Of a stretch of DNA of 64,000 nt, positions 9,497-51,807 are shown piece by piece. Both the position numbers and the translations under genes were made by a program. Positions within the stretch are counted from its first letter, which is position 1. Each line of letters starts with the position of its first letter. This DNA comes from Schwartzia succinivorans DSM 10502 (GTDB lineage Bacteria > Bacillota > Negativicutes > Selenomonadales > Selenomonadaceae), in contig NZ_FQUG01000002.1 of the NCBI RefSeq assembly GCF_900129225.1, positions 248,001-312,000 of the forward strand, given 5' to 3'. A model generated the notes under the pieces. The model was not told the origin of the DNA, ran no database searches, and was given only the letters and a program-made list of their open reading frames with translations.

Positions 9497-10534
9497 ATGG
9501 AGCTTCAAAAGCTTATCGAAAAAGCGGAAACGACACATAAATTAACGAAGGAGGAGCTTACGCTCCTTCTTTCTTCATCTGAGGCAGAAGAACATCTTGC
9601 CGCAGCTGCCGACCGCGTTCGGAAGAAATACGTCGGGGACGCAGTGCATCTTCGCGGTCTTATTGAATTTTCCAGCTATTGCAGAAGAAACTGCATGTAC
9701 TGCGGCCTGCGGCGTGATAATGAAAAAGCAGGCAGATACCGTCTTTCACCTGATGAGATAAAAGCCCTTGCGGAAAAAGCAGTGGGCTACGGATATCATA
9801 CAGTCGTTCTTCAGTCGGGAGAGGATATGTGGTATACAACGGAGCGTCTTGTACCGATTATACGATTCATAAAAAATCTTGGGGCAGCCGTTACTCTTTC
9901 AATTGGGGAGCGTACGAGAGAAGAATATGCGGAGCTGAAAAAAGCAGGAGCAGACAGATTCCTGCTGCGCATAGAAACTACTGACCGCGCTCTTTATGAA
10001 AAGCTTGATCCGGGAATGTCCTATGACGAACGCTGCCGATGCCTTCATGACCTGAAGGAGCTTGGATATGAAGTGGGAACAGGCTGCCTCATCGGACTTC
10101 CGGGACAAACTGTAGAAGCCCTTGCTGAAGATATTCTTTTCTTTCAGGAAATCGACGCTGACATGGTGGGAATCGGGCCTTTGATTCCTAATCCCGATAC
10201 ACCCCTTGGCGATGAGCCGACAGGTGACATGGGGATTACACGGCGCATGGTATCCCTTATCCGACTCCTTCTTCCGGAGGCGAATATTCCCGCGACGACG
10301 GCAATGGAGACACTTATCCCGCATAAAGGCCGGGAGATAATTCTGAAATCCGGGGCAAATGTAGTAATGCCTAATGTGACAGAGGGAGAGGCAAGGGAAA
10401 AGTATGCACTCTATCCAGGCAAGGCATGTGTGTCAGATACACCTGCATACTGCCGTACATGTATGGAGACAAGGATAAATGCCATCGGCAGATTCATCGG
10501 CAGTGATGCAGGCGCAAGAAAACACCGCAGATAA
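9497..10534 (+). CDS. hydE: [FeFe]-hydrogenase maturase HydE, radical SAM
   Basis: Radical SAM enzyme for assembly of the di-iron subcluster of [FeFe]-hydrogenase, cytoplasmic. The 345-residue length fits. The SAM-cluster cysteines are Cys62, Cys66 and Cys69 (CRRNCMYC), followed by GLRRDN. Downstream are VVLQSGEDMWYT, RIETTDRALYEKLDPGMSY and GCLIGLPGQTVE, all HydE-like rather than BioB or ThiH. Cysteines near the C-terminus (YCRTCMETR) could hold the auxiliary cluster found in many HydE. It starts 10 bases after the second cyclase and may share its transcript. HydF, HydG and the hydrogenase are not in this window. HydE is more likely than PylB. Confidence 0.92.
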   Translation: MELQKLIEKAETTHKLTKEELTLLLSSSEAEEHLAAAADRVRKKYVGDAVHLRGLIEFSSYCRRNCMYCGLRRDNEKAGRYRLSPDEIKALAEKAVGYGYHTVVLQSGEDMWYTTERLVPIIRFIKNLGAAVTLSIGERTREEYAELKKAGADRFLLRIETTDRALYEKLDPGMSYDERCRCLHDLKELGYEVGTGCLIGLPGQTVEALAEDILFFQEIDADMVGIGPLIPNPDTPLGDEPTGDMGITRRMVSLIRLLLPEANIPATTAMETLIPHKGREIILKSGANVVMPNVTEGEAREKYALYPGKACVSDTPAYCRTCMETRINAIGRFIGSDAGARKHRR

Positions 10535-10607
10535 GTTTCATAATATTTACATTTTGCTTTTCTATCATGATGGAAGGCAAAAAGTCTTTTGGAGGTAACC
10601 GCAGGCT

Positions 10608-11378
10608 ATGCATACGGCTGTACTTGGAAGCGGCAGTAAAGGAAACTCAGTCTATATAGAAATGGAAGGAATGCATATTCTCGTTGACGCGGGAATCGGT
10701 GTACGTCGTGTCATGAAGGGCCTGAAGGAAATCGGGGTAACACCTGATATGCTTTCAGCGGTTTTTCTGACCCACGAGCATACAGACCATGTAAAAGGTC
10801 TTGGGCCGCTTCTTCGTGCCACGGAGGCAACGGTTTATACAAGACCGGGAACGCTTGAAGCGCTTCCCAAAAGAAAAGAGCTGCCGGAGGAACGTCTTGA
10901 AGTAATTCATGATGAAATGAAACTGGGGCCTCTTACAGTAAAGGCCTTTTCGACGCTTCATGATGCGGCTGACCCTGTGGGATACAGCTTCTATGGAGCA
11001 AATTCCAAATGCACTCTTGCAACTGATTTAGGATTCATTACTTCCTCAGTTCAGTCGGCAATAGACGGTTCTGATGTGCTGGTGCTGGAAACAAACCACG
11101 ACCCCGCAATGCTGAAAAGAGGGTCGTATCCCTGGCCGCTTAAGCAGCGGATTTTGAGCAATCGGGGGCACCTTGCAAACGAGGAGGCTGCATGGGCGCT
11201 TGTACACATGAAAAAACGCCCGAAAAAGCTCTTTCTTGCACATCTCAGCGAGGAAAACAACCGACCTGAGCTGGCGAAGGAAACAGTGGAACGGGTTTTA
11301 AGGGAACAGGGGGCAGCATCCCCGACCATGGAAATAACCGTTGCACGTCAGAATGACATGGACTTTTGGTGTGAATGA
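10608..11378 (+). CDS. MBL-fold metallo-hydrolase of the YycJ/WalJ type
   Basis: A 256-residue cytosolic metallo-beta-lactamase-fold protein. The N-terminus LGSGSKGNSVYIE, the metal motif THEHTDHVKGL near residue 60, YSFYGANSKCTLATDLG and the NHD motif are typical of YycJ (WalJ), which in low-GC Gram-positives is linked to the WalRK cell-wall operon and, in some species, DNA-repair or wall phenotypes. Here, as there, an htrA-type protease and rlmH follow, the same order as yycJ-htrA-rlmH at the end of wal operons, but the WalRK and YycHI genes are absent upstream. ATG 10608 is preceded by TTTGGAGGT at suitable distance. Confidence 0.9.
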   Translation: MHTAVLGSGSKGNSVYIEMEGMHILVDAGIGVRRVMKGLKEIGVTPDMLSAVFLTHEHTDHVKGLGPLLRATEATVYTRPGTLEALPKRKELPEERLEVIHDEMKLGPLTVKAFSTLHDAADPVGYSFYGANSKCTLATDLGFITSSVQSAIDGSDVLVLETNHDPAMLKRGSYPWPLKQRILSNRGHLANEEAAWALVHMKKRPKKLFLAHLSEENNRPELAKETVERVLREQGAASPTMEITVARQNDMDFWCE

Positions 11379-11395
11379 CAACAGGAGGGATAGAT

Positions 11396-12517
11396 ATGAA
11401 ACTCGTTGTGAAGGACTGGAAAAAATATACGACAGGCGCGCTCATGGGAATGGTTGTGACAGGCGCGGTGCTTTTCAGCGGCTGCTCAGGCCTGGGCGCG
11501 GTCGCGTCATCTGATGCGGGCATTCCCGAGACATCACGGCCTGCTGTATCAACCGGGACAGGGAATCTTTCAGATGCCCGCAACACTCCTACGGTTCGAG
11601 TAGCGAAGGCGGTGGGGCCTGCAGTAGTAGGTATCACAAACAAAGCCGTCGCAAGAGACTGGTTTAACAATCAGGTACAGGTAGAGCAGGGAGTAGGCTC
11701 GGGAGTTATTTTCAGAAGCGACGGATATATCGTCACGAATAACCATGTAATAGAGGGCGCCCGCGAAATTCTTGTATCACTTTCCGACGGCCGCAGTGTA
11801 AAGGGCAAGCTTATCGGGGCTGATGAGCTTACGGATATCGCGGTTGTAAAAATTGATGAAACAGACCTTCCCACAGCATCCTTCGGAAACTCTGACGAGA
11901 TCGTTGTAGGAGAGCCTGCCATAGCCATCGGAAATCCGATGGGACTTGAATTCCAGGGAAGTGTAACCGTCGGCGTTATTAGCGCGATGAACCGTACCCT
12001 TTCCATGGGTGGCGAACGTCAGCTCAAGCTCATTCAGACAGACGCGGCAATCAGCCCGGGCAACTCCGGTGGAGCACTTGCCAATGCTGACGGACTTGTA
12101 ATCGGAATCAACAGCGCAAAAATAGCGGCTAACGGCGTCGAGGGCATGGGCTTTTCCATTCCTATCAATACCGTCCGTGAAGTTGTATCCCAGCTTATGG
12201 AGCACGGACGTGTAATCCGTCCGTACCTCGGCGTCGGAGTATTTGATAAAGAAACGGCTGCCCGTGCAGGCTATCAGCTCAATGTAGACGCAGGTGTGTA
12301 TGTGCAGAATGTAACACTGCAGGGGCCTGCAGGGCGTGCAGGACTCCAGCGCGGCGACATCATTCTTGAGGTTGGCGGGGAAAAGACGAATACTGTCGGA
12401 GAGCTTCGTGCCGCTGTTACCGCCCATAGCGTCGGAGATACTGTCCCGGTGAAATATATCAGAGGCGACGAAACCTACACTGTAGACGTCACACTGGACG
12501 CGGCCCCGGAGCGGTAA
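11396..12517 (+). CDS. HtrA/DegP-type trypsin-like serine protease with PDZ domain
   Basis: Envelope quality-control protease, about 373 residues. The N-terminus has one hydrophobic segment (GALMGMVVTGAVLFSGC) ending in a possible lipobox, so it is membrane-anchored or a lipoprotein facing outward. The catalytic triad is His117 (TNNHVIEG), Asp147 (LTDIAVVKI) and Ser224 (SPGNSGGAL). A single PDZ domain follows from about residue 270 (RPYLGVGVF, GPAGRAGLQRGDIILEV). ATG 11396 has AGGAGGG upstream; starting at 11375 would overlap the yycJ stop and lacks such a site. The rlmH gene starts one base after its stop. Confidence 0.95.
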   Translation: MKLVVKDWKKYTTGALMGMVVTGAVLFSGCSGLGAVASSDAGIPETSRPAVSTGTGNLSDARNTPTVRVAKAVGPAVVGITNKAVARDWFNNQVQVEQGVGSGVIFRSDGYIVTNNHVIEGAREILVSLSDGRSVKGKLIGADELTDIAVVKIDETDLPTASFGNSDEIVVGEPAIAIGNPMGLEFQGSVTVGVISAMNRTLSMGGERQLKLIQTDAAISPGNSGGALANADGLVIGINSAKIAANGVEGMGFSIPINTVREVVSQLMEHGRVIRPYLGVGVFDKETAARAGYQLNVDAGVYVQNVTLQGPAGRAGLQRGDIILEVGGEKTNTVGELRAAVTAHSVGDTVPVKYIRGDETYTVDVTLDAAPER

Positions 12518-12518
12518 C

Positions 12519-12998
12519 GTGAAGATTACGATAGTTGCGGCAGGCAAGCTGAAGGAAAAATATCTTACACAGGGCATCGCGGAGTTTATGAAAAGACTTA
12601 CTCCCTTTGCCCGTGTAGAAATACGGGAAATAAACGAGGAGCACATGCCGGACGAGCCCTCTGACGCAGACCGCGAAAGGGTTCTGACAAAAGAAGGAGA
12701 GCGTCTTTTGAAACAGGTGCCCGAGGGAAGCTATCTTTTCGTGCTGGACGTATACGGAAAGCAAAAATCCTCCGAGGAGCTTGCGGAGCGTATAAATGAG
12801 CTGGGGCTTCAGGGGAAAAGCAGCATTACATTTCTTATCGGAGGAGCCTTCGGACTCTCAAAGGAAGTCCGCGCGGCGGCAGACGAGCTTTTATCCTTCT
12901 CGCGGATGACATTTACACATCAGATGGTGCGTCTTCTTCTTGTAGAGCAGATATACCGTGCATTCAAGATTAACCGCGGAGAGAAATATCACTGGTAA
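12519..12998 (+). CDS. rlmH: 23S rRNA (pseudouridine-1915-N3)-methyltransferase RlmH
   Basis: SPOUT-class methyltransferase acting on helix 69 of the assembled 70S ribosome. The 159-residue length is typical. The trefoil-knot SAM site is FLIGGAFGLSKEV near residue 107, and the C-terminus FTHQMVRLLLVEQIYRAFKI ending YHW is diagnostic. The start codon is GTG at 12519, one base after the htrA stop; the upstream CCGGAGCGG could serve as RBS. Last gene of the yycJ-htrA-rlmH group, closed by a symmetrical terminator. Confidence 0.97.
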   Translation: MKITIVAAGKLKEKYLTQGIAEFMKRLTPFARVEIREINEEHMPDEPSDADRERVLTKEGERLLKQVPEGSYLFVLDVYGKQKSSEELAERINELGLQGKSSITFLIGGAFGLSKEVRAAADELLSFSRMTFTHQMVRLLLVEQIYRAFKINRGEKYHW

Positions 12999-13006
12999 AA
13001 TAAAAA

Positions 13007-13037
13007 CGCAGCAGGGTTAACCCTGCTGCGAATTTTT
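13007..13037. terminator. Bidirectional terminator between convergent genes
   Basis: A perfect 10-bp stem CGCAGCAGGG / CCCTGCTGCG around TTAA, with T7 on the plus-strand side and an A-rich flank giving T5 on the minus side. It ends rlmH (+) and the S41 protease (-). Confidence 0.93.
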
Positions 13038-13043
13038 TTGCCG

Positions 13044-14798
13044 TTATTTACCGAGAATTTTGTTGATGTATTTGGTCAGAGCCTTTCTGTCATAGAACTG
13101 ATCCGGGGTCGGCAGAACAAAATCAGGCGTTACGCCCTTGTCTATGTCATAGAATGAACCGTTTTTTGTATAGGCGAGACGATAAGGCCCGGATATATTG
13201 AACACACACCCGTCAGCTGTTGTCATATTCTGCACAACACAGGCACCGCCGCCGGAGGTCTGACCGAGTATTGTGACACGGTTGGAGTTCTTCAGCGCGC
13301 TTGGAACAAGATTGCCGCAGGAGAAGCTGTTTGGTGAGGTCAGACAGAAAAGATTGTAATTAAGGAGATTGTCTTTGTCGTCAAACTTTCTGTCCATATT
13401 CATATCAGCCTTGAAATTCTGAGTAACGAGAGCACCTGTTAAAGGATTTGTTACACTTATGGAGCCTTCACCCAAAAACATACTGATAGTGTATGCCGCG
13501 GTGGGCGCCGCACCGCCGCCGTTGTTTGAAAGGTCAAGCACGACATTTTTTATCGGACTGTCTTTTCTCGTGATTCTGGAGAAGGAGTAGCTCATCAGAC
13601 AGATAGTGTCATCAAGATGCTCCGCTACCGTTTCCTTGTAATAGTCATCAACGGTGACGTCAAATTTGTCAAAGGTAATATACGCGGTGTTTCCTACCTC
13701 TTCATATTGGGGCACACCGTTTGGATAGCGTTTATTACGGGCTTCTGCATACCGCTTCATGTCAGCGATACTTTGTCTGCAGGAGGTTCCGTACCTGCGC
13801 TCGGGAGCCTCCTTCATCATGTAGGAACGTTTGGCAAAGGAACTGTGCAGGTCGTCAAGATGAATGAATGTTAAATCACAGAGTGCCTGTCCTGCTGTCT
13901 GTGGGTCAGGACTGAGGAGTTGCTCCTTGAGCCCGGCCTGAAGGAACATCGTATCAAAATTTTTTATGTTATGCTGTTCCTTTAACCCGTAAAGAGAGTC
14001 AAGGGCAAAACAAAGTTCGTTGTAGTTGAATTTTGCCAGTGCGTCACTTCTTTTTGCCGGGTGTGGGACATTGTAATAAAGGTCTTCGAATGGCTGGAGA
14101 TTTCCGCTCTGCAGAATGAAGACACTTGCCCCGTTATACAGAGAGTTCATCCCGTTCTGTGACAGCAGGATGTCACTGAAAAGCTGGAGAGGTACGTAAT
14201 ATTCACCGTCCTGACAGATAAGGTCGATTCCATAATCTCCGGGGTGGAAGGTAATTGATTCACCGTAGCGCTCGAAGGAAGTATTGCTTCTCTGGAAAAG
14301 CTCTGCTTCTCCCTGGTCGTTATAGCCGGAAACCGCAACAAGATCCATAAGAGTTGCGTCAGGAAGCCTGACCATAAAAGCATCATAATCCCAGAAGGAG
14401 ATAGTATCCTCGCCGCAGTCGAAGATTACAGGATAGTGTGTCTCTCTGCTGAGCATAACCCGTTCACCCTTTGACTGCATCGTCAGGTTGTACTTCGGGG
14501 CATCCATCGCTCTTACCATACGGATAAGTATATCCTTTGCAGCAGTAACAGAAATATACGGAACATCATTTACACCGTCGATAAAATAAAGGTCGATTTT
14601 GTCCTTGCTGCCTTCCTGCGCATTGCCGTAATAAATAGGTACTGTCATTTTCCCGATTTCATGGTCATAGGCGGATTCCGAGGCTTCGGTTTCAACCGCT
14701 GCTGATGGCAGACTTTCCTCTGCATGACCGTATACCGGCGAAAAAAGAATGCTGCCTGCAAGTAAAATTGATGCGAGTTTTCCTTTCGTTCCCTTCAT
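13044..14798 (-). CDS. Exported S41-family (tail-specific type) serine peptidase
   Basis: A 584-residue exported protein. A signal peptide (LASILLAGSILFSPVYGHA) begins the protein. The middle is a family-specific region of about 300 residues containing copper-amine-oxidase-N-like stretches that I cannot assign. The C-terminal 200 residues are the S41 fold: VVLDLSNNGGGAAPT, then the nucleophile region LTSPNSFSCGN with Ser near residue 492, and TSGGGAC. I do not see a PDZ domain. The usual Lys general base four residues after the Ser is not obvious (SCGNLVPSALK), so a variant dyad or a non-processive peptidase is possible. RBS GGAGGAGG precedes the start on the minus strand. A copy of the dispersed promoter-like repeat lies 45-80 bases upstream. 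Confidence 0.82.
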   Translation of the reverse strand: MKGTKGKLASILLAGSILFSPVYGHAEESLPSAAVETEASESAYDHEIGKMTVPIYYGNAQEGSKDKIDLYFIDGVNDVPYISVTAAKDILIRMVRAMDAPKYNLTMQSKGERVMLSRETHYPVIFDCGEDTISFWDYDAFMVRLPDATLMDLVAVSGYNDQGEAELFQRSNTSFERYGESITFHPGDYGIDLICQDGEYYVPLQLFSDILLSQNGMNSLYNGASVFILQSGNLQPFEDLYYNVPHPAKRSDALAKFNYNELCFALDSLYGLKEQHNIKNFDTMFLQAGLKEQLLSPDPQTAGQALCDLTFIHLDDLHSSFAKRSYMMKEAPERRYGTSCRQSIADMKRYAEARNKRYPNGVPQYEEVGNTAYITFDKFDVTVDDYYKETVAEHLDDTICLMSYSFSRITRKDSPIKNVVLDLSNNGGGAAPTAAYTISMFLGEGSISVTNPLTGALVTQNFKADMNMDRKFDDKDNLLNYNLFCLTSPNSFSCGNLVPSALKNSNRVTILGQTSGGGACVVQNMTTADGCVFNISGPYRLAYTKNGSFYDIDKGVTPDFVLPTPDQFYDRKALTKYINKILGK

Positions 14799-38399: not shown

Positions 38400-38834
38400 A
38401 TGGCGGACAAAAATTGTATCGAAGGATGGCGTCAGTATAACGCGGATATGAGTGCTTATGAAGAGCTTCGCGATGATGTTCTGAAGGATGCTGAAAAAGC
38501 GGGGCTGAGCGCAAAACGTTTGAACACTCTTGAGCTTGGAGTAGAGGAGATTGCTGTCAATATTATTTCCTACGCATATGAAAACGGTGGCTCTCTTTGG
38601 GTGCGGACATCCAAGGAGGACGGCTTCTTTAAGCTGGAATTTGTCGACCACGGCAAACCCTTTAATCCTCTTGCTGAGGATATGCGTCCCACTGACGGTG
38701 TTCCGTCGGTGGAGCAGGAGGAGGGCGGCTACGGCATTTTTCTCGTGAAGCAGTTTTTCGCCTCGGTGAGCTACACGCACGAGGAAATGTTCGGTAAGAT
38801 GTCAAATCACCTGACAATGGAGCTCTCTGTATGA
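38400..38834 (+). CDS. RsbW-like anti-sigma factor serine kinase / ATP-binding protein
   Basis: A 144-residue GHKL ATPase of the anti-sigma type. The N-box is LGVEEIAVNIISYAY, followed by EFVDHGKPFNPL (G1) and GGYGIFLVKQFF (G2). It lacks dimerisation and sensor domains. In partner switching such kinases bind either a sigma factor or an unphosphorylated STAS antagonist, and phosphorylate the latter. The stop overlaps the ATG of the SpoIIE-type phosphatase, and a STAS protein follows, so the full set is present. No sigma factor gene is visible here. Confidence 0.9.
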   Translation: MADKNCIEGWRQYNADMSAYEELRDDVLKDAEKAGLSAKRLNTLELGVEEIAVNIISYAYENGGSLWVRTSKEDGFFKLEFVDHGKPFNPLAEDMRPTDGVPSVEQEEGGYGIFLVKQFFASVSYTHEEMFGKMSNHLTMELSV

Positions 38835-41020
38835 ATATTAAAAAGATGGGAATCCAAAAACGAATTTTATTTTTACTGCTGGCAACGGGACTGGCAACCT
38901 TTTTGGTTATTTCCGCTGTCTCCTTGGTGAGCCTTTACCAAAGCCGTTCCGATTCACTGGAAACAGGAAGAAACATGGGAGAGACCGTTGCGTCCTTTAC
39001 AGAGGATTTTGCCGCAAGGCAGGCAAAAAAACGTCTCTCGGATGAGGCGGAGGATAAAGCCGAAACCGTTGAGCATATAGTAAAGAGCATCTTGCAGGAT
39101 GCGGACAATCTTGCACGGTCCATGACCGGGATTATGTCGGATAAGGAAACCTATCCGGCGCGGGTGCTCACGACCCCGACGGAAGAAAAAATCCCCGGAA
39201 ATATTGCTTATGTTTATAAGACGACGGGATTTGCTGAGAGATTTCCTTATGATCCGCTGCTTCAGAAGGAACTTGGTACAGCAGCTAATATAGCTGAAAT
39301 ACTGGAATTTATATCCCGGGAATATCAGACAGATACCTCCTGCTACGTTGCGTCAGAGAACGGCTATATGATTTGGGCGGACGGCCTTTCGAAGGGAGAT
39401 ACTCATGCGGATTTGCCCGATGTTTATCTGAAACGTGAATTTAATGCGTTGGTACGCCCGTGGTATATTGCCGCAAAAGAAAAAGGAAAACCTGTCGTCA
39501 CAGATGTTTATGTGTCGGTAGAGGGTGACCTTGAGGTTACATGCGCCGCACCGTATTATGATGGCGGTGAATTTGCCGGAGTTGCAGGAATAAGCACGCC
39601 GCTTGATTCTCTTTATGCACTGGTTCAGGAAAAAAACATGGGAAAGGACAGCATCAATTTCGCTCTGAACCGGAAGGGCTGTGTAGTATTATCTACGCAG
39701 AAAACGGGAACGCTGGCGGTATCTGCAGACACGGATCTGCGCCTTTCGGGTGAGCAGAGTCTGGCCATGGAGGCTGCTTCTATGGCCGCAGGCAAACGGG
39801 ATGTTGCTCTGGTTACTGTTGACGGGGAAGAATATTATCTCGCATACGCTCCAATGCCTTCCATAGGATGGAGCTTCGGCACACTGGTCAAACGTGACGC
39901 AGTGGTCGGCCCTGCAAAGGAGATAAGACACACTGTCATGAGCGAGGCGAAAAAATTCGCTGCCGTTCTGGATGATTTTTTCTTTGGGAATTTTATCCGC
40001 ATGGCTGTGCTGATGCTTTTCATTCTGGCAGTGCTTGTCTACGTCAGCCGCAGGGCTGCGCGGCGTTTTGTTGAGCCGGTTCTTGCACTTTCTGCCGGGG
40101 TAAAGGACATCGCAAAGGGTAATCTAGACAGGAAGCTGGATATAAAAACAGGGGATGAGATAGAAGGTCTCGCCGACAGCGTCAATGAAATGACCGATGA
40201 CCTGAAAAAATACATGGATAATCTTGCGACGGCAACTGCGGATAAGGAACGTATTGCTACGGAGCTTTCACTGGCACAGGGAATACAGGAGGGTATGCTG
40301 CCTCAGATTTTCCCGAAGTTTTCAAACAACCCTCATTTTGACCTCTTTGCCAGCATGGAGCCCGCACGTGAGGTGGGCGGAGATTTCTATGATTTCTACA
40401 GCCTTGATGACGATCATCTGGCTTTGACTATTGCCGATGTTTCAGGCAAAGGTGTTCCTGCGTCGCTATTCATGGTTATCTCGAAAACTATTCTGAAAAA
40501 CGCGGCCCTTTCCATGGGGCAGGCAGCTGACCTGGGACACATGATGGAAATATCGAACCGTCAACTCTGCGAAAATAATGAAGAAATGATGTTTGTCACG
40601 GTGTTTTTCGGGGTTCTGGACGTAAAAACAGGGGAATTTTCCTATGTAAATGCCGGACATAATGCACCATATATAGGCCGTACCGAAGACGGACACACAG
40701 AATGGAGCTCACTTAGTGATGAAAAGAAAAATTACATGGTGGGCGCAGTTGAAAATGCTGTTTACGACGAAAGGAAAATCACGCTGAAGCCTGGAGACAT
40801 GCTTTTCGTATATACAGACGGCGTAACCGAGGCAATGAATGAAAACGGAGAATTGTACACAGACGAGCGCCTTGAAGCAACACTTGGGCGCGTGGCGACA
40901 CCGGATAAAAATGCGGAGACAATTCTTGCCGAAGTCCGTGCGGATGTAGCCGAACACGTAGGTGAGGCGGAGTCTTCGGACGATGTGACGATGCTTGGTA
41001 TAAGATATCTTGGAGCGTGA
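38831..41020 (+). CDS. Cache-HAMP-SpoIIE/RsbU-type PP2C phosphatase
   Basis: A 729-residue membrane sensor phosphatase. TM1 is at about residues 14-34. A large extracellular region (about 40-370) is of the double-Cache type, with RPWYIAAKEKGKPVVTDVY and GVAGISTPLDSLY as its signature. TM2 is near 390-408, then HAMP (VEPVLALSAGVKDIAKGN), a short coiled coil, and the PP2C domain (about 490-729) with EVGGDFYDFY, DVSGKGVPASLFM and SSDDVTMLGI metal-binding motifs. It likely dephosphorylates the STAS antagonist in response to an external small molecule. Coupled to the RsbW-like gene by ATGA. Confidence 0.92.
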   Translation: MNIKKMGIQKRILFLLLATGLATFLVISAVSLVSLYQSRSDSLETGRNMGETVASFTEDFAARQAKKRLSDEAEDKAETVEHIVKSILQDADNLARSMTGIMSDKETYPARVLTTPTEEKIPGNIAYVYKTTGFAERFPYDPLLQKELGTAANIAEILEFISREYQTDTSCYVASENGYMIWADGLSKGDTHADLPDVYLKREFNALVRPWYIAAKEKGKPVVTDVYVSVEGDLEVTCAAPYYDGGEFAGVAGISTPLDSLYALVQEKNMGKDSINFALNRKGCVVLSTQKTGTLAVSADTDLRLSGEQSLAMEAASMAAGKRDVALVTVDGEEYYLAYAPMPSIGWSFGTLVKRDAVVGPAKEIRHTVMSEAKKFAAVLDDFFFGNFIRMAVLMLFILAVLVYVSRRAARRFVEPVLALSAGVKDIAKGNLDRKLDIKTGDEIEGLADSVNEMTDDLKKYMDNLATATADKERIATELSLAQGIQEGMLPQIFPKFSNNPHFDLFASMEPAREVGGDFYDFYSLDDDHLALTIADVSGKGVPASLFMVISKTILKNAALSMGQAADLGHMMEISNRQLCENNEEMMFVTVFFGVLDVKTGEFSYVNAGHNAPYIGRTEDGHTEWSSLSDEKKNYMVGAVENAVYDERKITLKPGDMLFVYTDGVTEAMNENGELYTDERLEATLGRVATPDKNAETILAEVRADVAEHVGEAESSDDVTMLGIRYLGA

Positions 41021-41101
41021 TGATAGTTGCAAAAATATTTGAGCCTCCAACAAAAATTGTTCTGCAACTGCAAATAGCGGTGTGAAAGAGAGGAATTTAG
41101 G

Positions 41102-41437
41102 ATGGCCGGAGAACTGATACAGGAAGAAAGAAAACTGGAGAACGGCTGGACTGTCTGGATGGTCAGAAGCCGTATTGATTTGAAGACAGCTGATGAGGTA
41201 TATAAGCGCGGAGAGGAAATAATAGCGAAGTCGGATAAGACTGCCCTCGACATGTCGGGAGTAGAATATCTTTCCAGCGCCGGAATCCGTGCTATGCTCC
41301 GCCTGAACAAGCTGGCACGTAAAAGCTCAAAGGAGTTTACGGTGGTCGGAGCTAATGGCATGCCCAAGGCTGTGCTTGAGGACAGCGGGATGGATGTGCT
41401 TTTGAAGGCAAAGGAATCTGTTGATGAATTAATTTGA
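41102..41437 (+). CDS. STAS-domain anti-sigma factor antagonist (RsbV/SpoIIAA-like)
   Basis: A 111-residue single STAS domain. The predicted phosphorylation region is ALDMSGVEYLSSAGIRAMLR with Ser in SSAG. Located 82 bases after the phosphatase gene, with a separate RBS (GAGAGGAATT-like) and no terminator in between, so it belongs to the same partner-switching set. The second STAS protein of the window (46539) is more distant. Confidence 0.9.
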   Translation: MAGELIQEERKLENGWTVWMVRSRIDLKTADEVYKRGEEIIAKSDKTALDMSGVEYLSSAGIRAMLRLNKLARKSSKEFTVVGANGMPKAVLEDSGMDVLLKAKESVDELI

Positions 41438-41626: not shown

Positions 41627-42862
41627 ATGGCCGAGCTTGAGAATTTGCCGGAGGAGGAGCTCTTCGATGAGCTTGGAGACCCGTCTCTTCGACGAATCCT
41701 GGATACGATGGTCAAATCAATAGAGGTTAGCAAGTCACAGCTTTATGATGTTTATGAAGCCGCGCATTCCGAAGTGGAGCAGAGCAAGAAAAATCTTGAG
41801 TCGGCAAAACGGCAGACGAGGGAAATCATTGATGAGGTTGATGCACTTGTACAGCTTGAGCAGCGGGAAAAACAAAAGCTCGTGCGTGTAAGCTCCAGCT
41901 TTTCCGATTATTCTGAGGAAAAGATACAGGAGGCTTATGAGGCTGTAAAGAACGTACAGGTTCAGCTTGGCATTGCACGGGAAAAGGAGCAGCAGCTCAG
42001 GAATCAGCGCAATCAGCTGGAGCGCAGACTTGCCCGTCTGCAGAAAACAGTGGGAGCCGCACAGCGTCTGGCGATGAGAATAAGCTCAATGCTCAGCTAC
42101 CTTAGTGTGCAGATAAGCGACGTAGTGCTGCAGCTTGAAGCGGCATCAAAAAATAAATACCTGAGTGCGGCAATAATCCGCGCCCAGGAGGACGAGCGGC
42201 TGCGCGTCTCAAGAGAGATTCATGACGGACCGGCTCAGGATGTCGCGAATATCATGCTGGAAGCATCAATAGTGGAACGCCTTGTGGACATTGACAAGGA
42301 CGAAGCAAAGATGAGCCTTAAGGAGCTGAGAAAGCATCTTCGGGAGTGTCTCAAGGATATCCGTCAGATTATTTTCGACATGCGTCCAATGTCTCTTGAT
42401 GATCTTGGACTTGTGGCTGCACTTCAGGCAGTTTCCCGCAAATTTCGTGAAAGAGATATGCTGGTGGTGCATTTCTCCGTGGACGGAGATGAGGTTCAGC
42501 TTGAAGAACACGTAAAGACAGGTCTTTTCCGTATAGTACAGGAATCACTGAACAACGTGCTGCATCATTCCGGAGTCAAGGAAGCCGTGCTGCGCATGCT
42601 GTATACGGATGCCGCAGTTTCCATCCTCATTGAGGATAAGGGTAAGGGCTTTGACGTAGATGCCTTTGAGGAGCAGAACAAGAGCGATGATGCTGAAAAG
42701 AAGCATTTCGGTATTCTCGGAATGAAGGAGCGTGCGACTATAATAGGCGCTCAGTTCAGTGTCACCTCGAAGCCTGGAGAAGGTACGCGGGTTCATATCC
42801 GTTTCCCGTTAAAGGTGGAAAATCAGCAGGCACTAAAGGATGAACAGGGGAAGCAGGCATGA
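41627..42862 (+). CDS. DegS-like cytoplasmic sensor histidine kinase
   Basis: A 411-residue soluble two-component kinase. Residues about 25-165 form a long coiled coil like the signal-transducing part of DegS. HisKA_3 follows with the phospho-acceptor His in SREIHDGPAQDVAN and the HATPase has QESLNNVLHHSG (N-box), EDKGKGFDVDAF and LGMKERATIIGAQ. No membrane segment. No response regulator is adjacent; the next gene is a decarboxylase that overlaps by ATGA. The upstream intergenic region includes TTGACA (41551) and a GTAGA-ATA-TCTAC dyad at 41514-41526. Confidence 0.9.
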   Translation: MAELENLPEEELFDELGDPSLRRILDTMVKSIEVSKSQLYDVYEAAHSEVEQSKKNLESAKRQTREIIDEVDALVQLEQREKQKLVRVSSSFSDYSEEKIQEAYEAVKNVQVQLGIAREKEQQLRNQRNQLERRLARLQKTVGAAQRLAMRISSMLSYLSVQISDVVLQLEAASKNKYLSAAIIRAQEDERLRVSREIHDGPAQDVANIMLEASIVERLVDIDKDEAKMSLKELRKHLRECLKDIRQIIFDMRPMSLDDLGLVAALQAVSRKFRERDMLVVHFSVDGDEVQLEEHVKTGLFRIVQESLNNVLHHSGVKEAVLRMLYTDAAVSILIEDKGKGFDVDAFEEQNKSDDAEKKHFGILGMKERATIIGAQFSVTSKPGEGTRVHIRFPLKVENQQALKDEQGKQA

Positions 42863-46422: not shown

Positions 46423-46432
46423 TGTATTAAGA

Positions 46433-46475
46433 AAAGAGACGTGAAAATTTTTTATATTTTTCACGTCTCTTTTTA
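46433..46475 (+). terminator. Intrinsic terminator after rsmA
   Basis: Long stem AAAAGAGACGTGAAAA with its complement ending ACGTCTCTTTTT; T5 tail. Possibly works in both directions. Confidence 0.93.
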
Positions 46476-46538
46476 CTTTTGCATATTTCTAGTATTATAA
46501 TATTTATATCAAACAAAAAATCCGAGAGGGGTTTCAAT

Positions 46539-46838
46539 ATGGACATAAAACAGGAGACAAACGGTACAGAGCTTACGATGTTTCTTTCAGGGCGTCTGGA
46601 TACAGTCGCGGCCGTTGACTTTGAAAAGGCACTGGATGCGGTATCGAAGGATGTGACGCTTCTTATCGTTGACTGCGCTGAGCTCTCTTACGTTGCATCC
46701 TCAGGACTTCGCATGTTCCTGAGAGCACAGAAGCGCATGAATGCGCAGGGGAAGCTCGTCGTGCGTCATGTGCAGGAGAGTGTCATGGAGGTTTTCTCAA
46801 TGACCGGATTTGATTCACTGCTTCAGATAGAAAACTAA
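46539..46838 (+). CDS. Second STAS-domain anti-sigma factor antagonist
   Basis: About 99 residues, one STAS domain; the phosphorylatable Ser is in SYVASSGLRMFLRAQ. It is preceded by its own promoter (TTTACT-18-TATAAT at 46472-46501) and by GAGAGGGG as RBS eight bases before ATG 46539. The longer frame from 46479 would start inside that promoter. It stands next to the condensation/cNMP gene, 54 bases away with a weak hairpin (46837-46860) between them. Its kinase is probably the RsbW-like protein at 38400, or one outside the window. Confidence 0.9.
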   Translation: MDIKQETNGTELTMFLSGRLDTVAAVDFEKALDAVSKDVTLLIVDCAELSYVASSGLRMFLRAQKRMNAQGKLVVRHVQESVMEVFSMTGFDSLLQIEN

Positions 46839-46892: not shown

Positions 46893-48746
46893 ATGCAGGA
46901 AAACAGAATTAGCTTTGAAGATCTTCCGAAAAAAGATCAGGTGCGGCTTTGCGCAGTTTACGGGTCGCAGCCGAAAAACGGATATACGGCGTACAGGATA
47001 GAATACGTCCGTGAACTGACTCCTTATGAAGCATGGTTTTTCGGCCGTGGGAACTTTTTGTCCCCCAGCTTTTTGACACAGACACTCTACAAGCTGAAGG
47101 GAACACTTTCCCCGCTTTTATTCAACCGTATCCTCAGAGATTATGAGGCGCAGGAGGATGTGCTTCGGACGAATTACTGCGATATTGGCGACCGTGTGCT
47201 GGCTGTGGTGACAAAGGAACGCAAAAATACAGAGCCTGTTATTTACAACAATCTGCAGGGACGCGAGCCGGAAGAAATAGATGAAATGCTTTCCAAGTTT
47301 TCGGCAGCGGAGATTCGTTATCCCTTTGATGTAGAAAAGGGTGGACTGCACAGAATTTTTGTTTTTCACACAGGGCCTGATGAATATGCCGTACTTGTTA
47401 CAGCCGCGCAGATTATTCTTGACCGCTTCGACATCAGAAAGATTTTCAGCCAGCTGCTGAATTTGCCTGAGGTCGAATATTCCGAAGTGAAGCCTGTTTT
47501 ACAGAGCGGGCACATGGAATCCAAGATGCACGAATATTGGAAGAAGCTTTTGGCCGCTCCGCCGCAGTCCAATGCCCTGCCATGGGAGCTTGAGAACGCG
47601 CCGCAGCATTCGTACAAGCAGAGAGCGCGAAACATCGTTCTCTCCGGCGAGCTCTTTTCAAGCCTGGTGGAGGAATCTAAGGGCAACCGCATGATGATGA
47701 TGGCAATACTGGCCTCCACATGGGGACTTCTTCTGCAGACAGAGGGACGTTTAAAGGATTTGTGCATCTGCCTGCTCGTTCCGAATCAGAACATGCAGAA
47801 GGAGGAAGCATGGCGCCCGTTCAGCATGGTGCCTGTACGGCAGACACTGGCAAAGGATGATACAATAGACAGCCTGCTGAAGCGGCAGTTCCAGCAGATG
47901 CTTGTATCAAGACCTTATGCATGCCTTGACTGGGAAAGCTTTGAAACCTTCCTTGGAAAGGGAAAGAAGCCCTTCAATCATTTTCTTGATTTTTATGACT
48001 TTCTTTCGGAAGAAAAGCCATATTCCCAGCAGTCTGCGGAAGCAAATGGCGGCGTGGTTTCAAGGCGTTCATGGGATTCCAGAAGTACGAAGCTGAGTCT
48101 CTATTTCCAGTACACAAAAACGAAAGCTTCCATCATAATGCTTTACGACGAAGCTTCATTTCCACCGGGGATTGGAGACCGCATAGCGAAAACCTACACC
48201 TTGCTGCTGCAGCAGATGCTCACGGATATTCATAAGCCTGTTGATGTGATTCAGGAGAATCTTCTTGCACGTCTTCATTCCGAAAAATCGATGCAGGCCG
48301 TTTACAAGGAGGAAGAAAAGGCACGCCTGCAGCACGCTGTATCCACAGTGCAGATTCTGCAGGGCGCAAGCTCCGGAACAACGCAGCATTTTGTACAGGC
48401 AGGAACGCTTCGCACGTACTTCGAGGGAGACCGCATAGAAGGCACGGACAGAGACTTCCTTTTCGTTGCAGAAGGAAAACTGGCACGCAGTATCGAGGAC
48501 GGCGAAGGCTGGTACTGCACGCTGGATATCGTAAAGGATGGCGCATGGATTAACGAGACTGTCACGCTTGAAGAACGCAAAGCCACACTCTCAGTTGAGG
48601 TTCTTTCCGAGCGCGCTGAGATTTTGGTCGTATCGAAGGAAGCTATGGAAAACATCCTTACCCAGCATCCAAGTCTTTATAAAAAAATCATTACCTACGC
48701 TGTCTCACAGCTTGAAAAATATCAAAGACTCTGGGCACAGTCATAA
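46893..48746 (+). CDS. Degenerate condensation-domain protein fused to a cNMP-binding-like domain
   Basis: A 617-residue cytosolic protein. Residues about 40-470 resemble a nonribosomal-peptide condensation domain: LTPYEAWFFGRG and KLKGTLSPLLFNRILRDYE fit the C-domain start, and VLVTAAQIILDRFDIRKIF occupies the place of the HHxxxDG motif. There both His are replaced (AQ) and the Gly is Arg, so acyl condensation is unlikely. Residues about 485-615 look like a Crp-type cyclic-nucleotide-binding beta-barrel (FLFVAEGKLARSI, then INETVTLEERKATLSVEV and VVSKEAMENILTQHPSLYKKI), without a DNA-binding helix-turn-helix. No adenylation or carrier domain is nearby. It lies between a STAS protein and flagellin and ends at its own terminator. 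Confidence 0.7.
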   Translation: MQENRISFEDLPKKDQVRLCAVYGSQPKNGYTAYRIEYVRELTPYEAWFFGRGNFLSPSFLTQTLYKLKGTLSPLLFNRILRDYEAQEDVLRTNYCDIGDRVLAVVTKERKNTEPVIYNNLQGREPEEIDEMLSKFSAAEIRYPFDVEKGGLHRIFVFHTGPDEYAVLVTAAQIILDRFDIRKIFSQLLNLPEVEYSEVKPVLQSGHMESKMHEYWKKLLAAPPQSNALPWELENAPQHSYKQRARNIVLSGELFSSLVEESKGNRMMMMAILASTWGLLLQTEGRLKDLCICLLVPNQNMQKEEAWRPFSMVPVRQTLAKDDTIDSLLKRQFQQMLVSRPYACLDWESFETFLGKGKKPFNHFLDFYDFLSEEKPYSQQSAEANGGVVSRRSWDSRSTKLSLYFQYTKTKASIIMLYDEASFPPGIGDRIAKTYTLLLQQMLTDIHKPVDVIQENLLARLHSEKSMQAVYKEEEKARLQHAVSTVQILQGASSGTTQHFVQAGTLRTYFEGDRIEGTDRDFLFVAEGKLARSIEDGEGWYCTLDIVKDGAWINETVTLEERKATLSVEVLSERAEILVVSKEAMENILTQHPSLYKKIITYAVSQLEKYQRLWAQS

Positions 48747-48760
48747 AAGAAAATATCAGA

Positions 48761-48795
48761 GGGACTATGGAAAATCTTTTTCATAGTCCCTTTTT
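48761..48795 (+). terminator. Intrinsic terminator
   Basis: GGGACTATG / CATAGTCCC with a 12-base loop and T5. It separates the condensation/cNMP gene from the flagellin promoter. Confidence 0.93.
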
Positions 48796-48803
48796 GTGTG
48801 CTG

Positions 48804-48831
48804 TTAAGTTTGGGGAGGAAAAGAACGATAA
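48804..48831 (+). promoter_or_regulatory. Sigma-28 (FliA/SigD)-type promoter of flagellin
   Basis: TTAAGTTT, 12-base spacer, AACGATAA. This matches the flagellar consensus TAAAGTTT - 11 - GCCGATAA in 7 of 8 and 6 of 8 positions. Leader to ATG 48901 is about 60 bases. Confidence 0.75.
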
Positions 48832-48900: not shown

Positions 48901-51807
48901 ATGGCAATGATGATTATGAACAACGCTGCGGCGGCAATGACGCTGGGCGAACTCAATAAAAATATTTCTCAGATCGGCAAGCAGCTTAAAAAGCTCTCGT
49001 CCGGACAGCGTATTGTTGGTGCCGGGGATGATGCTTCGGGCTACAGCATTTCGGAGAAGATGCGGGTACGTATACGTGCGCTTGGACAGAATGAGCGGAA
49101 CGTGCAAAACGGTTCGGCTCTTCTTCGTGTTGCCGAGGGCGGCGTGCAGTCTCAACTTGATATTATGAGAACTATCAAGGAAAAGGTCATTGACGCAGAT
49201 AACGATACGAATACTGACATTGATCGTGCGACAATACAAAAGGAAATAGATCATGGCTTCCGTCAGATTGAAAATATTGCCCGGGAAACCACCTACAACG
49301 GAAAACGCCTGCTTGTTGGGGACAAAGTGGGTGAAAAGGTGTACAGCTGGGTGGTTGATGATAAATCCAGCCTGCTCCCAGGCAGCGATGAGATGCGTAT
49401 GATTGACATGAATATGATTGACGATAAATACGAAAGCCTAAACGGCATCGTCGGTCCTTTTGATTTGTTTAAAAAGTCGAAGATTGAGAGCGCAACCTTG
49501 GATAAACTGGGATTCTCGCCAACAATTCAGCTTGAAGGCGGCGATGATAATATATATACATTTGACAGTTCTTTCAAAACAGTGGATGATTTCGACGGGG
49601 CGGCTCTGGCGGAATCGTATTCAGATACGGCAATCGTATTGAAAAAAGGTTCTAATGCAGAAAATAAATATGGTGGTTATGTCAATTACTGTAACGTAAG
49701 GCTTAATAATAATGTCAAAGAAGTTGATATTAGTGGTTGTAGTTCGGTAGAAGAGGTTATGGAAGTCATTCAGGCCAAATTGCCGAATATAGTTAAAGGA
49801 TATGGTGTGGACGAAAATGGCGCCTATTATTTAAAAACTGTCAGAACGCTTGGTGGAAGAATGTACAGATACTCTTCAGCCCAAATGGAAGAGGTTGGTA
49901 AGACTGGTCTTTTTAATGGGCCGTCGTATTTTTCGGGGGGAGAAGAAGCTTCAGGTGCTATCGATGATGATCCAGATTCAGTAGAGCCGAATCCGGGCAA
50001 AAAGGCAACGTGGAGCCTTTCTGATATGCAAGCAAACACTGGTATCACGATATACCAGGATTATGGTAAATCTATAGCTGGTCTGAAGTTTGTTGATGGG
50101 AATGGAGCTCCGTCTCCGTATAACCCATATAACGGAATGCAGACTGTTGGAATAGATTATGAAGGAACTATTTTATTTGGTGATTGTACAGGGGAATTAA
50201 AAAATGGGACATTGGAAATTACGGCTTTGAGAGAGGGTATATACGGAAATACTTCTTACTATGTGAAAGACGGAATTGAAAAGGAAAAATATGAGTTTTT
50301 GGCGACAAAATCATTGAGTGGCACAAATGACCAACCTTGGGCATATGGAACTGTAGATGTGTCGGCATATGATGATGTGGAAACGTTAATTGATGATTTA
50401 AAAGGAAAAGCTATTACATTTAGTTATTCAAATGGGTACGCACAAGATAGCTATTATGAAAATGGATATCCATACGATTTTTCTACCCGAAACGAGTATT
50501 CTAACTCAGATGCGCCATACTTTTATGTTGAGTTTATTGATACTGGCTCAAGTAATCCTGTGGATGGAATGTATAAGTTTCCACATAGTATATTTGGCGA
50601 TGGAGTGGTGGATTTGGATGCTCTGCGCTCTGCTGTTGCGGGCGGAAAGACAATCGCAGAAGCTTTTTATGATTGCTGCAAGAGTTCGACTGCCAGAGAA
50701 GTTCAGGGTAGAATTGAAGAAGCTACAAGTGATGGAGGTCAGGTTATTGGCCTGAAAATTAGAGCCGGAAATTTCGGAGTTGGGACTGCCGGCAACAAAG
50801 AGAAACTTTTTTTGACACAAAATCAGTTGCGCTCCTACACTTTGGATTATGGTAAGTGGTTTAATGAAAACCCTGACAAGACTATTCCTGATTTTCTTAA
50901 TAACAAAGGATTTCGTTTTTACTGTGCCAGCTGTGATAATCAATGGTTTAATATTCATTTCATTACAGAAGAATTGCCGGGTGGCAGGCCACAAAATTCG
51001 GATCCCGGTGCTGAGGATATCAAACACCTTTATGTCGATGTGTCAGGCGTGACGGATGCGGAATCTTTGGTAAAGGCAATTTATGATCAGGCTATGCCTC
51101 AACTTACCGGTTCGGATCCGGATTTGAATCACTTTATGCGTTTGGTTGCGGATGGAGATAAGTTGATTATCTATGATGAACGTAGACTTACTGATTCGTA
51201 TCTAAGGAATGCTAAGGACAAAAAAGGTAATTACCTTTATGAATACCAGTGGGACGATGCGGAAAATGTTGGCGGCGCAAAAATAGCTGACGGCGTTTGG
51301 GATAATGTTTCCATAGGTGAGCGCGATGTGTATGTCCGTGACCTCATAATTCAGGACACTGACCATGCCAGCATGAATATCCGCCTGAGGATTCCTCAGA
51401 CCACAATGGACCATCTTTTCGGATATCAGGCAGGTACAAGGGATTTGTCGGAGTTTAATGTGCTTACTGCAAAAAGCCGCGAGGAGCTTTTAGGCAATAA
51501 GGCAGGCAAATCCCGCAGCGGAAGAATTATCCCGAAGGACGAAAAGGGACTTCTTGACACGGCGATTGATTATCTTACAAACGCAAATACTCTTATTGGT
51601 GCGCAGAACATGCGTCTCGGTATGACAGAGTCAAATATAGTAGTTCAGCAGGAGAATACTACTGCATCCGAGTCAACAATCCGCGATGCGGATATGGCGA
51701 AAGAAATGGCGGAGTATACGAAAGCGAGCGTGCTTTCACAGGCATCGCAGTCCATGTTGGCGCAGGCCAATCAGAATGGTTCTGCAATATTGAGCCTTCT
51801 TCAATAA
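48901..51807 (+). CDS. Flagellin with an exceptionally large central domain
   Basis: Filament subunit, about 968 residues, roughly double to triple a usual flagellin. D0/D1 at the N-terminus is clear (TLGELNKNISQIGKQLKKLS and GAGDDASGYSISEKMR, to about residue 150) and at the C-terminus (AIDYLTNANTLIGAQNMRLG and STIRDADMAKEM, ending NQNGSAILSLLQ, last 90 residues). The 700 residues between are a variable, presumably surface-exposed insertion. ATG 48901 is chosen because flagellins start MAM-; the TTG at 48877 would add eight unusual residues; AAAGGA is 12 bases upstream, a little far. DNA of the central part is visibly AT-richer than both ends. The gene has its own promoter and terminator. 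Confidence 0.92.
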   Translation: MAMMIMNNAAAAMTLGELNKNISQIGKQLKKLSSGQRIVGAGDDASGYSISEKMRVRIRALGQNERNVQNGSALLRVAEGGVQSQLDIMRTIKEKVIDADNDTNTDIDRATIQKEIDHGFRQIENIARETTYNGKRLLVGDKVGEKVYSWVVDDKSSLLPGSDEMRMIDMNMIDDKYESLNGIVGPFDLFKKSKIESATLDKLGFSPTIQLEGGDDNIYTFDSSFKTVDDFDGAALAESYSDTAIVLKKGSNAENKYGGYVNYCNVRLNNNVKEVDISGCSSVEEVMEVIQAKLPNIVKGYGVDENGAYYLKTVRTLGGRMYRYSSAQMEEVGKTGLFNGPSYFSGGEEASGAIDDDPDSVEPNPGKKATWSLSDMQANTGITIYQDYGKSIAGLKFVDGNGAPSPYNPYNGMQTVGIDYEGTILFGDCTGELKNGTLEITALREGIYGNTSYYVKDGIEKEKYEFLATKSLSGTNDQPWAYGTVDVSAYDDVETLIDDLKGKAITFSYSNGYAQDSYYENGYPYDFSTRNEYSNSDAPYFYVEFIDTGSSNPVDGMYKFPHSIFGDGVVDLDALRSAVAGGKTIAEAFYDCCKSSTAREVQGRIEEATSDGGQVIGLKIRAGNFGVGTAGNKEKLFLTQNQLRSYTLDYGKWFNENPDKTIPDFLNNKGFRFYCASCDNQWFNIHFITEELPGGRPQNSDPGAEDIKHLYVDVSGVTDAESLVKAIYDQAMPQLTGSDPDLNHFMRLVADGDKLIIYDERRLTDSYLRNAKDKKGNYLYEYQWDDAENVGGAKIADGVWDNVSIGERDVYVRDLIIQDTDHASMNIRLRIPQTTMDHLFGYQAGTRDLSEFNVLTAKSREELLGNKAGKSRSGRIIPKDEKGLLDTAIDYLTNANTLIGAQNMRLGMTESNIVVQQENTTASESTIRDADMAKEMAEYTKASVLSQASQSMLAQANQNGSAILSLLQ

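Follow-up and report, generated by a model that had tools for sequence, protein, structure and literature searches.

We describe a gene family, represented in the genome of Schwartzia succinivorans DSM 10502 by a single gene in the 64,000-nucleotide stretch analyzed here (positions 248,001 to 312,000 of contig NZ_FQUG01000002.1; hereinafter the window), whose 617-residue product joins a condensation (C) domain of the kind found in non-ribosomal peptide synthetases (NRPSs) to a barrel of the cyclic-nucleotide-binding domain (CNBD) type. The C domain has lost its catalytic motif, and the family shows a strong genomic link to the genes of partner-switching systems of the RsbU–RsbV–RsbW type, namely those for PP2C phosphatases, STAS proteins and HATPase_c_2 kinases. 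The reading that we favor, and to which we give about an even chance, is that this dead C-domain/CNBD pseudoenzyme is a dedicated part of a sigma-independent switch of this type, most likely on its output side.

In what follows, L denotes a DNA stretch, G a genome, g a genus and f a family, with f1 being the family of the window and G000 its genome. The sample comprises 89 genes of a chosen length range from 88 stretches, one being the window and the other 87 being fetched, in which genes were called by a simple open reading frame (ORF) script; a 183-residue fragment (L053), the long NRPS ORF of L104 and three ORFs of L105 were dropped before counting.

Domain architecture and loss of the catalytic motif

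The two-lobed condensation fold is present in the window protein by sequence profile and by predicted structure alike. Residues 47–452 match the Pfam Condensation domain (E 1.2e-19; 70.8 bits as against a cut-off of 30.6), and the profile of the family recovers bacitracin synthase 3 (E 3.7e-57). The AlphaFold model of the whole protein, obtained from an 84-row alignment (pLDDT 87.3, pTM 0.87), retrieves a tyrocidine synthetase chain in Foldseek (E 3.7e-25) and aligns by VIA with McyB-C1A1 over 362 residues (Z 23.3) with a root-mean-square deviation (rmsd) of 10.0, a high value that may be caused by the orientation of the lobes. The CNBD fold is present as well: modeled separately, the C-terminal 150 residues (pLDDT 93.4) align with the Crp/Fnr regulator 3e97 over 137 residues (VIA Z 17.1, rmsd 1.7). 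A family profile made from these 150 residues detects CNBD-bearing chains, the best match (E 5.3e-16) being to a chain with several weak repeats, and the single-domain regulator 2pqq being matched at E 4e-12. In the window protein itself, residues 520–592 remain under the Pfam cNMP_binding cut-off of 27.5 bits (23.3 bits, E 6.5e-5), which the relatives in L104 (31.4 bits) and L050 (36.0 bits) exceed. No helix-turn-helix (HTH) or other DNA-binding domain follows the barrel, as the chain stops after the C-terminal helix in both models. The original prediction, made from the sequence alone, had proposed a degenerate C domain followed by a Crp-type barrel without a DNA-binding helix; ORF coordinates, Pfam and models agree with it, and the structural check that it had suggested, run with Foldseek and VIA, recovered both the two-lobed, CAT-like fold and the barrel.

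A relation to encapsulins was considered and set aside. The Family 2B encapsulin model NF041163 scores 19.7 bits against a cut-off of 400 (E 3.7e-4), and the match spans only profile positions 64–200 of 450, that is, residues 474–606 of the fusion protein, a stretch which we take to correspond to the CNBD-type insert of the encapsulin. The likeness is local, the rest of the fusion protein being a C domain.

The HHxxxDG motif of C domains reads AQIILDR in the window protein, with both histidines missing as had been noticed earlier, and the loss extends to the whole family: over the 89 aligned rows the first histidine is never present, the second is kept in five (L040, L057, L103, L104 and L117), the aspartate in 35 and the glycine in five. 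By comparison, R92, W216, W277, F367 and Y418 are kept in 98–100% of the family. These column counts indicate that the scaffold of the C domain is under constraint, whereas its catalytic motif is not.

Members of full length are found mostly in f1, with a few in f2, f13 and f30. In a class-wide profile search, 154 of 380 genomes had a match at E 0.001, the low end of which consists of NRPS C domains in long frames. Among 398 genomes sampled from the phylum, no full-length member was seen outside the Negativicutes, with at most three candidates scored in each, a limit under which a fusion could escape notice where NRPSs are numerous. What these genomes matched at E 1e-30 outside f1 covers only the C domain, in frames of at least 1277 residues. 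Many carriers are rumen assemblies, and they include a Schwartzia assembly and Selenomonas ruminantium ATCC 12561, which has two copies. Shorter relatives of 489–550 residues occur in L052, L055 and L056; that of L052 has, by Pfam, a C domain and no CNBD match.

Association with partner-switching genes

For 23 of the 89 family genes, the immediate co-oriented neighbor within 200 bp codes for a STAS protein, an RsbW or a PP2C phosphatase, and for 26 such a switch gene is found somewhere in the stretch. The order of the genes differs between lineages: PP2C-STAS-RsbW-fusion (L046, L100), RsbW-STAS-PP2C-fusion (L037, L071, L077, L079, L106), PP2C-RsbW-fusion-STAS (L073), fusion-STAS (L040, L103) and fusion-STAS-RsbW (L086, as well as L041 with a degenerate kinase-like gene). 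In the window, a gene for an RsbV/SpoIIAA-like STAS protein (Pfam STAS, E 3e-13; NCBIfam ant_ant_sig, E 8.6e-16) lies 54 bp upstream of the fusion gene, and an RsbW kinase, a Cache-HAMP-PP2C phosphatase and a second STAS protein, all missed by the original prediction, are encoded 5–8 kb upstream of this pair. The Rsb-type set of PP2C, STAS and HATPase_c_2 kinase is encoded together, at 38400–41437 and 46539–46838 in the window and in operons in relatives.

The phosphorylatable serine is kept in all 25 aligned STAS proteins (the gene caller lost one more, in L075), and the asparagine of the EE...N motif in 16 of 21 aligned RsbW-like proteins. The other five, of a second type and without this N-box asparagine, are encoded next to a STAS gene in L041 (11037–11702; no HATPase match in Pfam), L064 (7368–7988) and L066 (7556–8176), and as second copies, again next to a STAS gene, in L073 (7505–8128) and L075 (10407–11027).

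On a quick LG+G4 tree, which came with long-branch warnings, no fewer than 10 changes are required to explain the linked state, with starred branches forcing at least eight of them, while the label is clustered in comparison with a shuffled mean of 22.7 changes. Linkage is therefore neither a single inherited block nor random. Since the hidden Markov models for STAS, RsbW and PP2C used on the stretches were seeded from genes near the family, the test was repeated with independent Pfam scans. In 13 genomes, five of the 19 stand-alone HATPase_c_2 kinases (over the cut-off, in a frame under 200 residues) have a family gene no more than 3 kb away, where random placement gives 0.08; without G261, which belongs to the same genus as G258, four do so as against 0.075 expected. 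Among 79 SpoIIE-type matches in 16 genomes, four are near a family gene, with 0.63 expected.

The link also holds at the level of whole genomes. A stand-alone RsbW, defined by a PF13581 score above 50 bits and a frame shorter than 200 residues, is present in 23 of 24 family-positive f1 genomes as compared to four of 27 family-negative ones (Fisher p 2.3e-9), and, within genera g3, g17 and g21, in 14 of 15 positives versus three of nine negatives (stratified p 0.006). The sample was drawn in two batches each of positives (11 and 13 genomes) and negatives (13 and 14 genomes), with the negative status of 14 genomes being defined by their absence from the class-wide profile matches; when the other 13 negatives were rechecked with a larger profile, it matched nothing in 11 of them, and in two it matched, weakly, just the CNBD part. 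G003 was counted as negative despite weak matches (best 1.6e-27), and leaving it out gives four of 26 and deprives g3 of its negative genome. Finally, in 12 of the 13 genomes that were tested, 11 positives of the window's family among them, no sigma factor of the SigB/F/G type exceeds the TIGR02980 cut-off, while the distant G304 has two such matches.

A candidate output protein of the switch

Given that no SigB/F/G-type sigma factor exceeds the cut-off and that the operon recurrently includes a non-sigma protein, the fusion protein is most simply modeled as filling the output slot of the switch. The Cache-HAMP-PP2C phosphatase would sense a signal from outside and dephosphorylate the conserved serine of the STAS protein, which the RsbW-type kinase would rephosphorylate. 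The fusion protein would stand where other systems have a sigma factor, and either the kinase or the STAS protein would bind or release it; its C-domain scaffold might then be a platform to which proteins attach, in the manner of the X-domain of glycopeptide NRPSs, acting by binding and not by catalysis, with the barrel and the conserved tail relaying the state of the switch. Direct binding, the output direction and the scaffold role are thus what we infer for the fusion protein, and in the window's genome the upstream kinase and phosphatase would serve the STAS protein encoded beside it. A more specific version, which we advance tentatively as having somewhat less than an even chance, starts from an NRPS condensation enzyme with a CNBD tail, of which one Negativicutes relative would still have a near-intact form beside an NRPS. 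After the loss of its chemistry, this enzyme would have been exapted across the Selenomonadaceae to replace the sigma factor as the output protein in partner-switching modules, giving rise to a pseudoenzyme family that provides such switches with a target of a new kind.

Several observations weigh against assigning the protein to the switch. No switch gene is found in the fetched stretch for 63 of the 89 family genes, among them the basal members and the whole of a large g13 clade of 27; many of the stretches consist of a short contig, and a stand-alone RsbW is encoded elsewhere in three g13 genomes that were tested. In the window only the STAS gene adjoins the fusion gene, with the kinase and phosphatase genes standing 5–8 kb off. 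Four family-negative genomes (G146, G272, G274 and G284) have a stand-alone RsbW, and the positive genome G270 has PF13581 only in longer frames of 868 and 594 residues. The excess of SpoIIE-type matches is modest (P 0.004), and the placement estimates treat related genomes as independent, which they are not. Weaker sigma-factor matches occur in all 13 genomes, and a cognate sigma factor could be of another class.

Alternative readings

An alternative that we regard as unlikely, if less so than those discussed after it, places the fusion protein on the input or modulator side, the barrel binding a small molecule and the protein tuning the phosphatase or the kinase. In its favor, the barrel is no less conserved than the C domain (column means of 0.51 over residues 506–600 versus 0.44–0.51), and G539, W540, N554 and W614 are among the conserved residues of barrel and tail. 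Classic cyclic-nucleotide domains need a Gly-Glu...Arg phosphate-binding cassette. Over the 89 rows, the glycine position is asparagine in 81 and glycine in one, and the glutamate is kept in 56; near the arginine position, there is an arginine in 45 rows at position 562 and a lysine or arginine in 69 at position 563, the HMMER alignment to 2pqq setting the cassette arginine of that protein at a neighboring column. With the glycine replaced, cyclic-nucleotide binding is without support, which speaks against the input role, as does the possession by the PP2C phosphatase of a dCache-HAMP sensor of its own; however, the basic residues near the arginine position make it possible that a ligand is still bound, perhaps a different one.

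Signaling genes of other kinds adjoin some copies. Just upstream of the family gene are a response regulator-GGDEF protein in L036 (4585–5889) and L043 (1431–2843), a Cache-HAMP-GGDEF protein in L065 (5524–8115) and a hybrid histidine kinase in L054 (6295–8415). These too can be read as favoring an input role. The original prediction had pointed to two GGDEF proteins in the window, which are there (matches at 255127 and 256983 of contig C13 of G000, about 7.1 and 9.0 kb into the window), and had suggested from them the sensing of cyclic dinucleotides as one possibility. We set aside the sensing of cNMP or cyclic di-GMP as a leading idea: the cassette glycine is lost, and GGDEF neighbors were seen for only three of the 89 family genes against a background of 15–31 GGDEF matches per genome. 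These neighbors, like the flagellar and SbmA ones mentioned below, are incidental observations and not the outcome of a systematic scan of the family over all stretches.

It appears improbable to us that the protein has remained a transferase of acyl, aminoacyl or peptidyl groups whose active site is unusual and whose partners are perhaps the carrier proteins of primary metabolism. The conserved fold and scaffold residues would suit such an enzyme, as would the few members that keep the second histidine and the member in L104, from the distant Negativicutes genome G304. Its motif reads PHITFDG, with the second histidine and the DG kept, its CNBD is over the Pfam cut-off, and its gene follows those for a 2398-residue NRPS with C, adenylation and carrier domains and for a carrier protein (L104, 1–10343). 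This combination fits an enzymatic origin of the family, of which it could be a relic, and the L104-type fusion is possibly the ancestral, active form. Homologues with an intact motif beside NRPS genes had been named at the outset as evidence that would speak against a regulatory role; what comes nearest to them is confined to this distant edge of the family. Against a transferase, the first histidine has been lost from all 89 members and the second from 84 of them; when the family profile was run over every ORF in the 88 stretches, L104 and L105 alone gave long NRPS-type matches, and it is a regulatory context that recurs instead. In the window's genome, the profile, which also matches NRPS C domains elsewhere, has one match, the fusion gene itself (all three candidates scored), and by eye no NRPS-type ORF is seen among the window ORFs of at least 250 residues. 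This is in line with the earlier statement that no adenylation, carrier or release domain lies nearby, for which carrier and adenylation families were not scanned genome-wide.

A role in the control of motility or of flagellin, which has a still slimmer chance, was suggested by the flagellin gene downstream of the fusion gene; a flagellin gene also stands divergently beside the family gene of L103, and genes for FlbD, FliL and FliM come after that of L042, as noticed without a systematic count. In the window, a terminator-like repeat and a sigma-28-like site separate the two genes. Together with the terminator-like repeat and the promoter-like site upstream, they give the STAS and fusion genes the appearance of a unit of two genes, and flagellin that of a sigma-28 unit of its own, even if these boundaries are only suggestions, since the repeats were picked out by eye and are absent from the site scan, and the promoter count equals the mean of shuffled sequences. 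Moreover, flagellin is present in 13 of 13 family-positive and 10 of 13 family-negative genomes tested, and G000 has seven flagellin-type genes on five contigs (frames of 286–988 residues). Hence, we set the flagellin link aside. The regulatory or scaffold function first proposed for the protein was supported in one part, a non-NRPS role in a partner-switching context, by the 89 homologues, the recurrence of the operon and the co-occurrence, and not in its flagellin part; the survey of homologue neighbors that had been suggested found STAS and other switch genes to recur, flagellar ones being noticed in the cases just given.

The most improbable alternative, that the neighborhood reflects coincidence or the vertical inheritance of one arrangement and that the role of the protein is unrelated, can draw on the 63 genes without switch genes in their stretch and on near-identical genomes sharing arrangements, but is countered by the at least eight changes of linked state on the tree, the differing gene orders and a co-occurrence that holds inside genera.

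Relationship to known systems

The switch genes resemble those of the RsbU/RsbV/RsbW and SpoIIAA/SpoIIAB systems of Bacillus in that a PP2C phosphatase, a STAS protein with a conserved serine and a small HATPase_c_2 kinase occur together, be it in a single operon or in the same genome. They differ from these in that no SigB/F/G-type sigma factor was found over the cut-off in the 11 positives, and the operon contains the C-CNBD fusion instead. Partner switches with unidentified targets or with a sigma factor other than SigB include SypA, BtrUVW and RbaV (PMC8256260), and the HsbR–HsbA switch works with RpoS and FlgM (PMC6482189). These share with the present system a switch centered on a STAS protein with an output other than SigB release; the accessible portions of these papers name no fusion with a C domain or a CNBD.

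Relative to the C domains of bacitracin, tyrocidine and surfactin synthetases, the window protein is alike in fold and scaffold, but its HHxxxDG motif is lost and no adenylation or carrier partner was seen. A modified C domain that acts by recruitment has a precedent in the X-domain of glycopeptide NRPSs, which recruits P450 enzymes, going by the accessible part of its description (PMC6333238). The X-domain structures 4tx2 and 4tx3 align with the whole model at VIA Z 20.4 and 20.7; however, the X-domain acts within an NRPS, whereas the fusion protein is a stand-alone one with a CNBD-type tail and signaling neighbors. As for the effector domains of Crp/Fnr regulators and other CNBDs, the barrel and helices are alike, whereas the fusion protein has no HTH, has asparagine for the cassette glycine in most members, and carries the barrel behind a C domain.

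No description of a C-CNBD fusion was found in the open-access literature, judged mostly from listings, in keeping with the earlier remark that no described system of such form was known. What we observe is known folds and a known signaling logic in a combination for which no description was found. If the output reading is right, the family offers a concrete candidate for a non-sigma target of partner switching, several switches being without a known target according to the accessible text of the source cited above (PMC8256260). It would also be an instance of the C-domain fold being used for signaling outside any assembly line, an enzyme part turned into a signaling part. For annotation, caution is advisable, as such genes may carry a non-ribosomal peptide synthetase label in genomes in which no other C domain is found. 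The two copies in the cultured strain S. ruminantium ATCC 12561 make the family testable.

Features of the window and further neighbors

Table 1. Positions of the fusion gene, its domains, the switch genes and adjoining sites in the window
Feature	Position	Strand	Basis
RsbW-type serine kinase (HATPase_c_2), probable switch kinase	38400..38834	+	Pfam PF13581, E 5.5e-18
RsbU/SpoIIE-type PP2C phosphatase with dCache and HAMP, probable input	38831..41020	+	PF07228, E 5.1e-44; dCache_1, E 2.1e-19; HAMP, E 2.1e-11
Second STAS protein	41102..41437	+	Pfam STAS, E 3.3e-12
Terminator-like inverted repeat and T run, between ksgA and STAS	46432..46474	+	By eye; not in the site-scan list
Sigma-70-like promoter TTTACT-18-TATAAT before STAS	46472..46501	+	10/12 match; scanned region has 3 sites versus 3.0 in shuffles
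STAS protein, RsbV/SpoIIAA-like, 99 residues	46539..46838	+	Start taken at ATG 46539; Ser in ASSGLR kept
C-CNBD fusion gene, 617 residues, ATG start	46893..48746	+	ORF call, Pfam, AlphaFold model; AGGAG resembling a ribosome-binding site immediately 5'
Condensation-type domain, residues 47-452	47031..48248	+	Pfam PF00668; Foldseek and VIA to NRPS C domains
Degenerate HHxxxDG site AQIILDR, residues 172-178 (A172, Q173, D177, R178)	47406..47426	+	Alignment, column counts
CNBD/Crp-type barrel and terminal helix, residues 468-617, phosphate-binding cassette altered	48294..48743	+	Profile, model, column counts
Terminator-like inverted repeat and T run after the fusion gene	48760..48795	+	By eye; not in the site-scan list
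Sigma-28-like site before flagellin	48804..48831	+	Relaxed pattern
Flagellin, judged a separate transcription unit	48901..51807	+	Pfam Flagellin_N/C

Between the two STAS genes, the window further codes for a DegS-like sensor kinase (41627–42862; DegS, HisKA_3 and HATPase_c). In L115, two tandem PP2C genes follow the fusion-STAS pair (10357–14761). Fusions of a MatE transporter-type domain to an RsbW-like HATPase_c_2 domain are encoded beside or near the PP2C gene in L073 (13001–14755; by similarity only), L075 (3803–5545; by Pfam) and L088 (9896–11713; by Pfam, with the kinase part under the cut-off). An SbmA/BacA-like ABC transporter gene adjoins the family gene or its STAS gene in L103 (10540–12261), L070 (8590–10299) and L110 (10449–12161).

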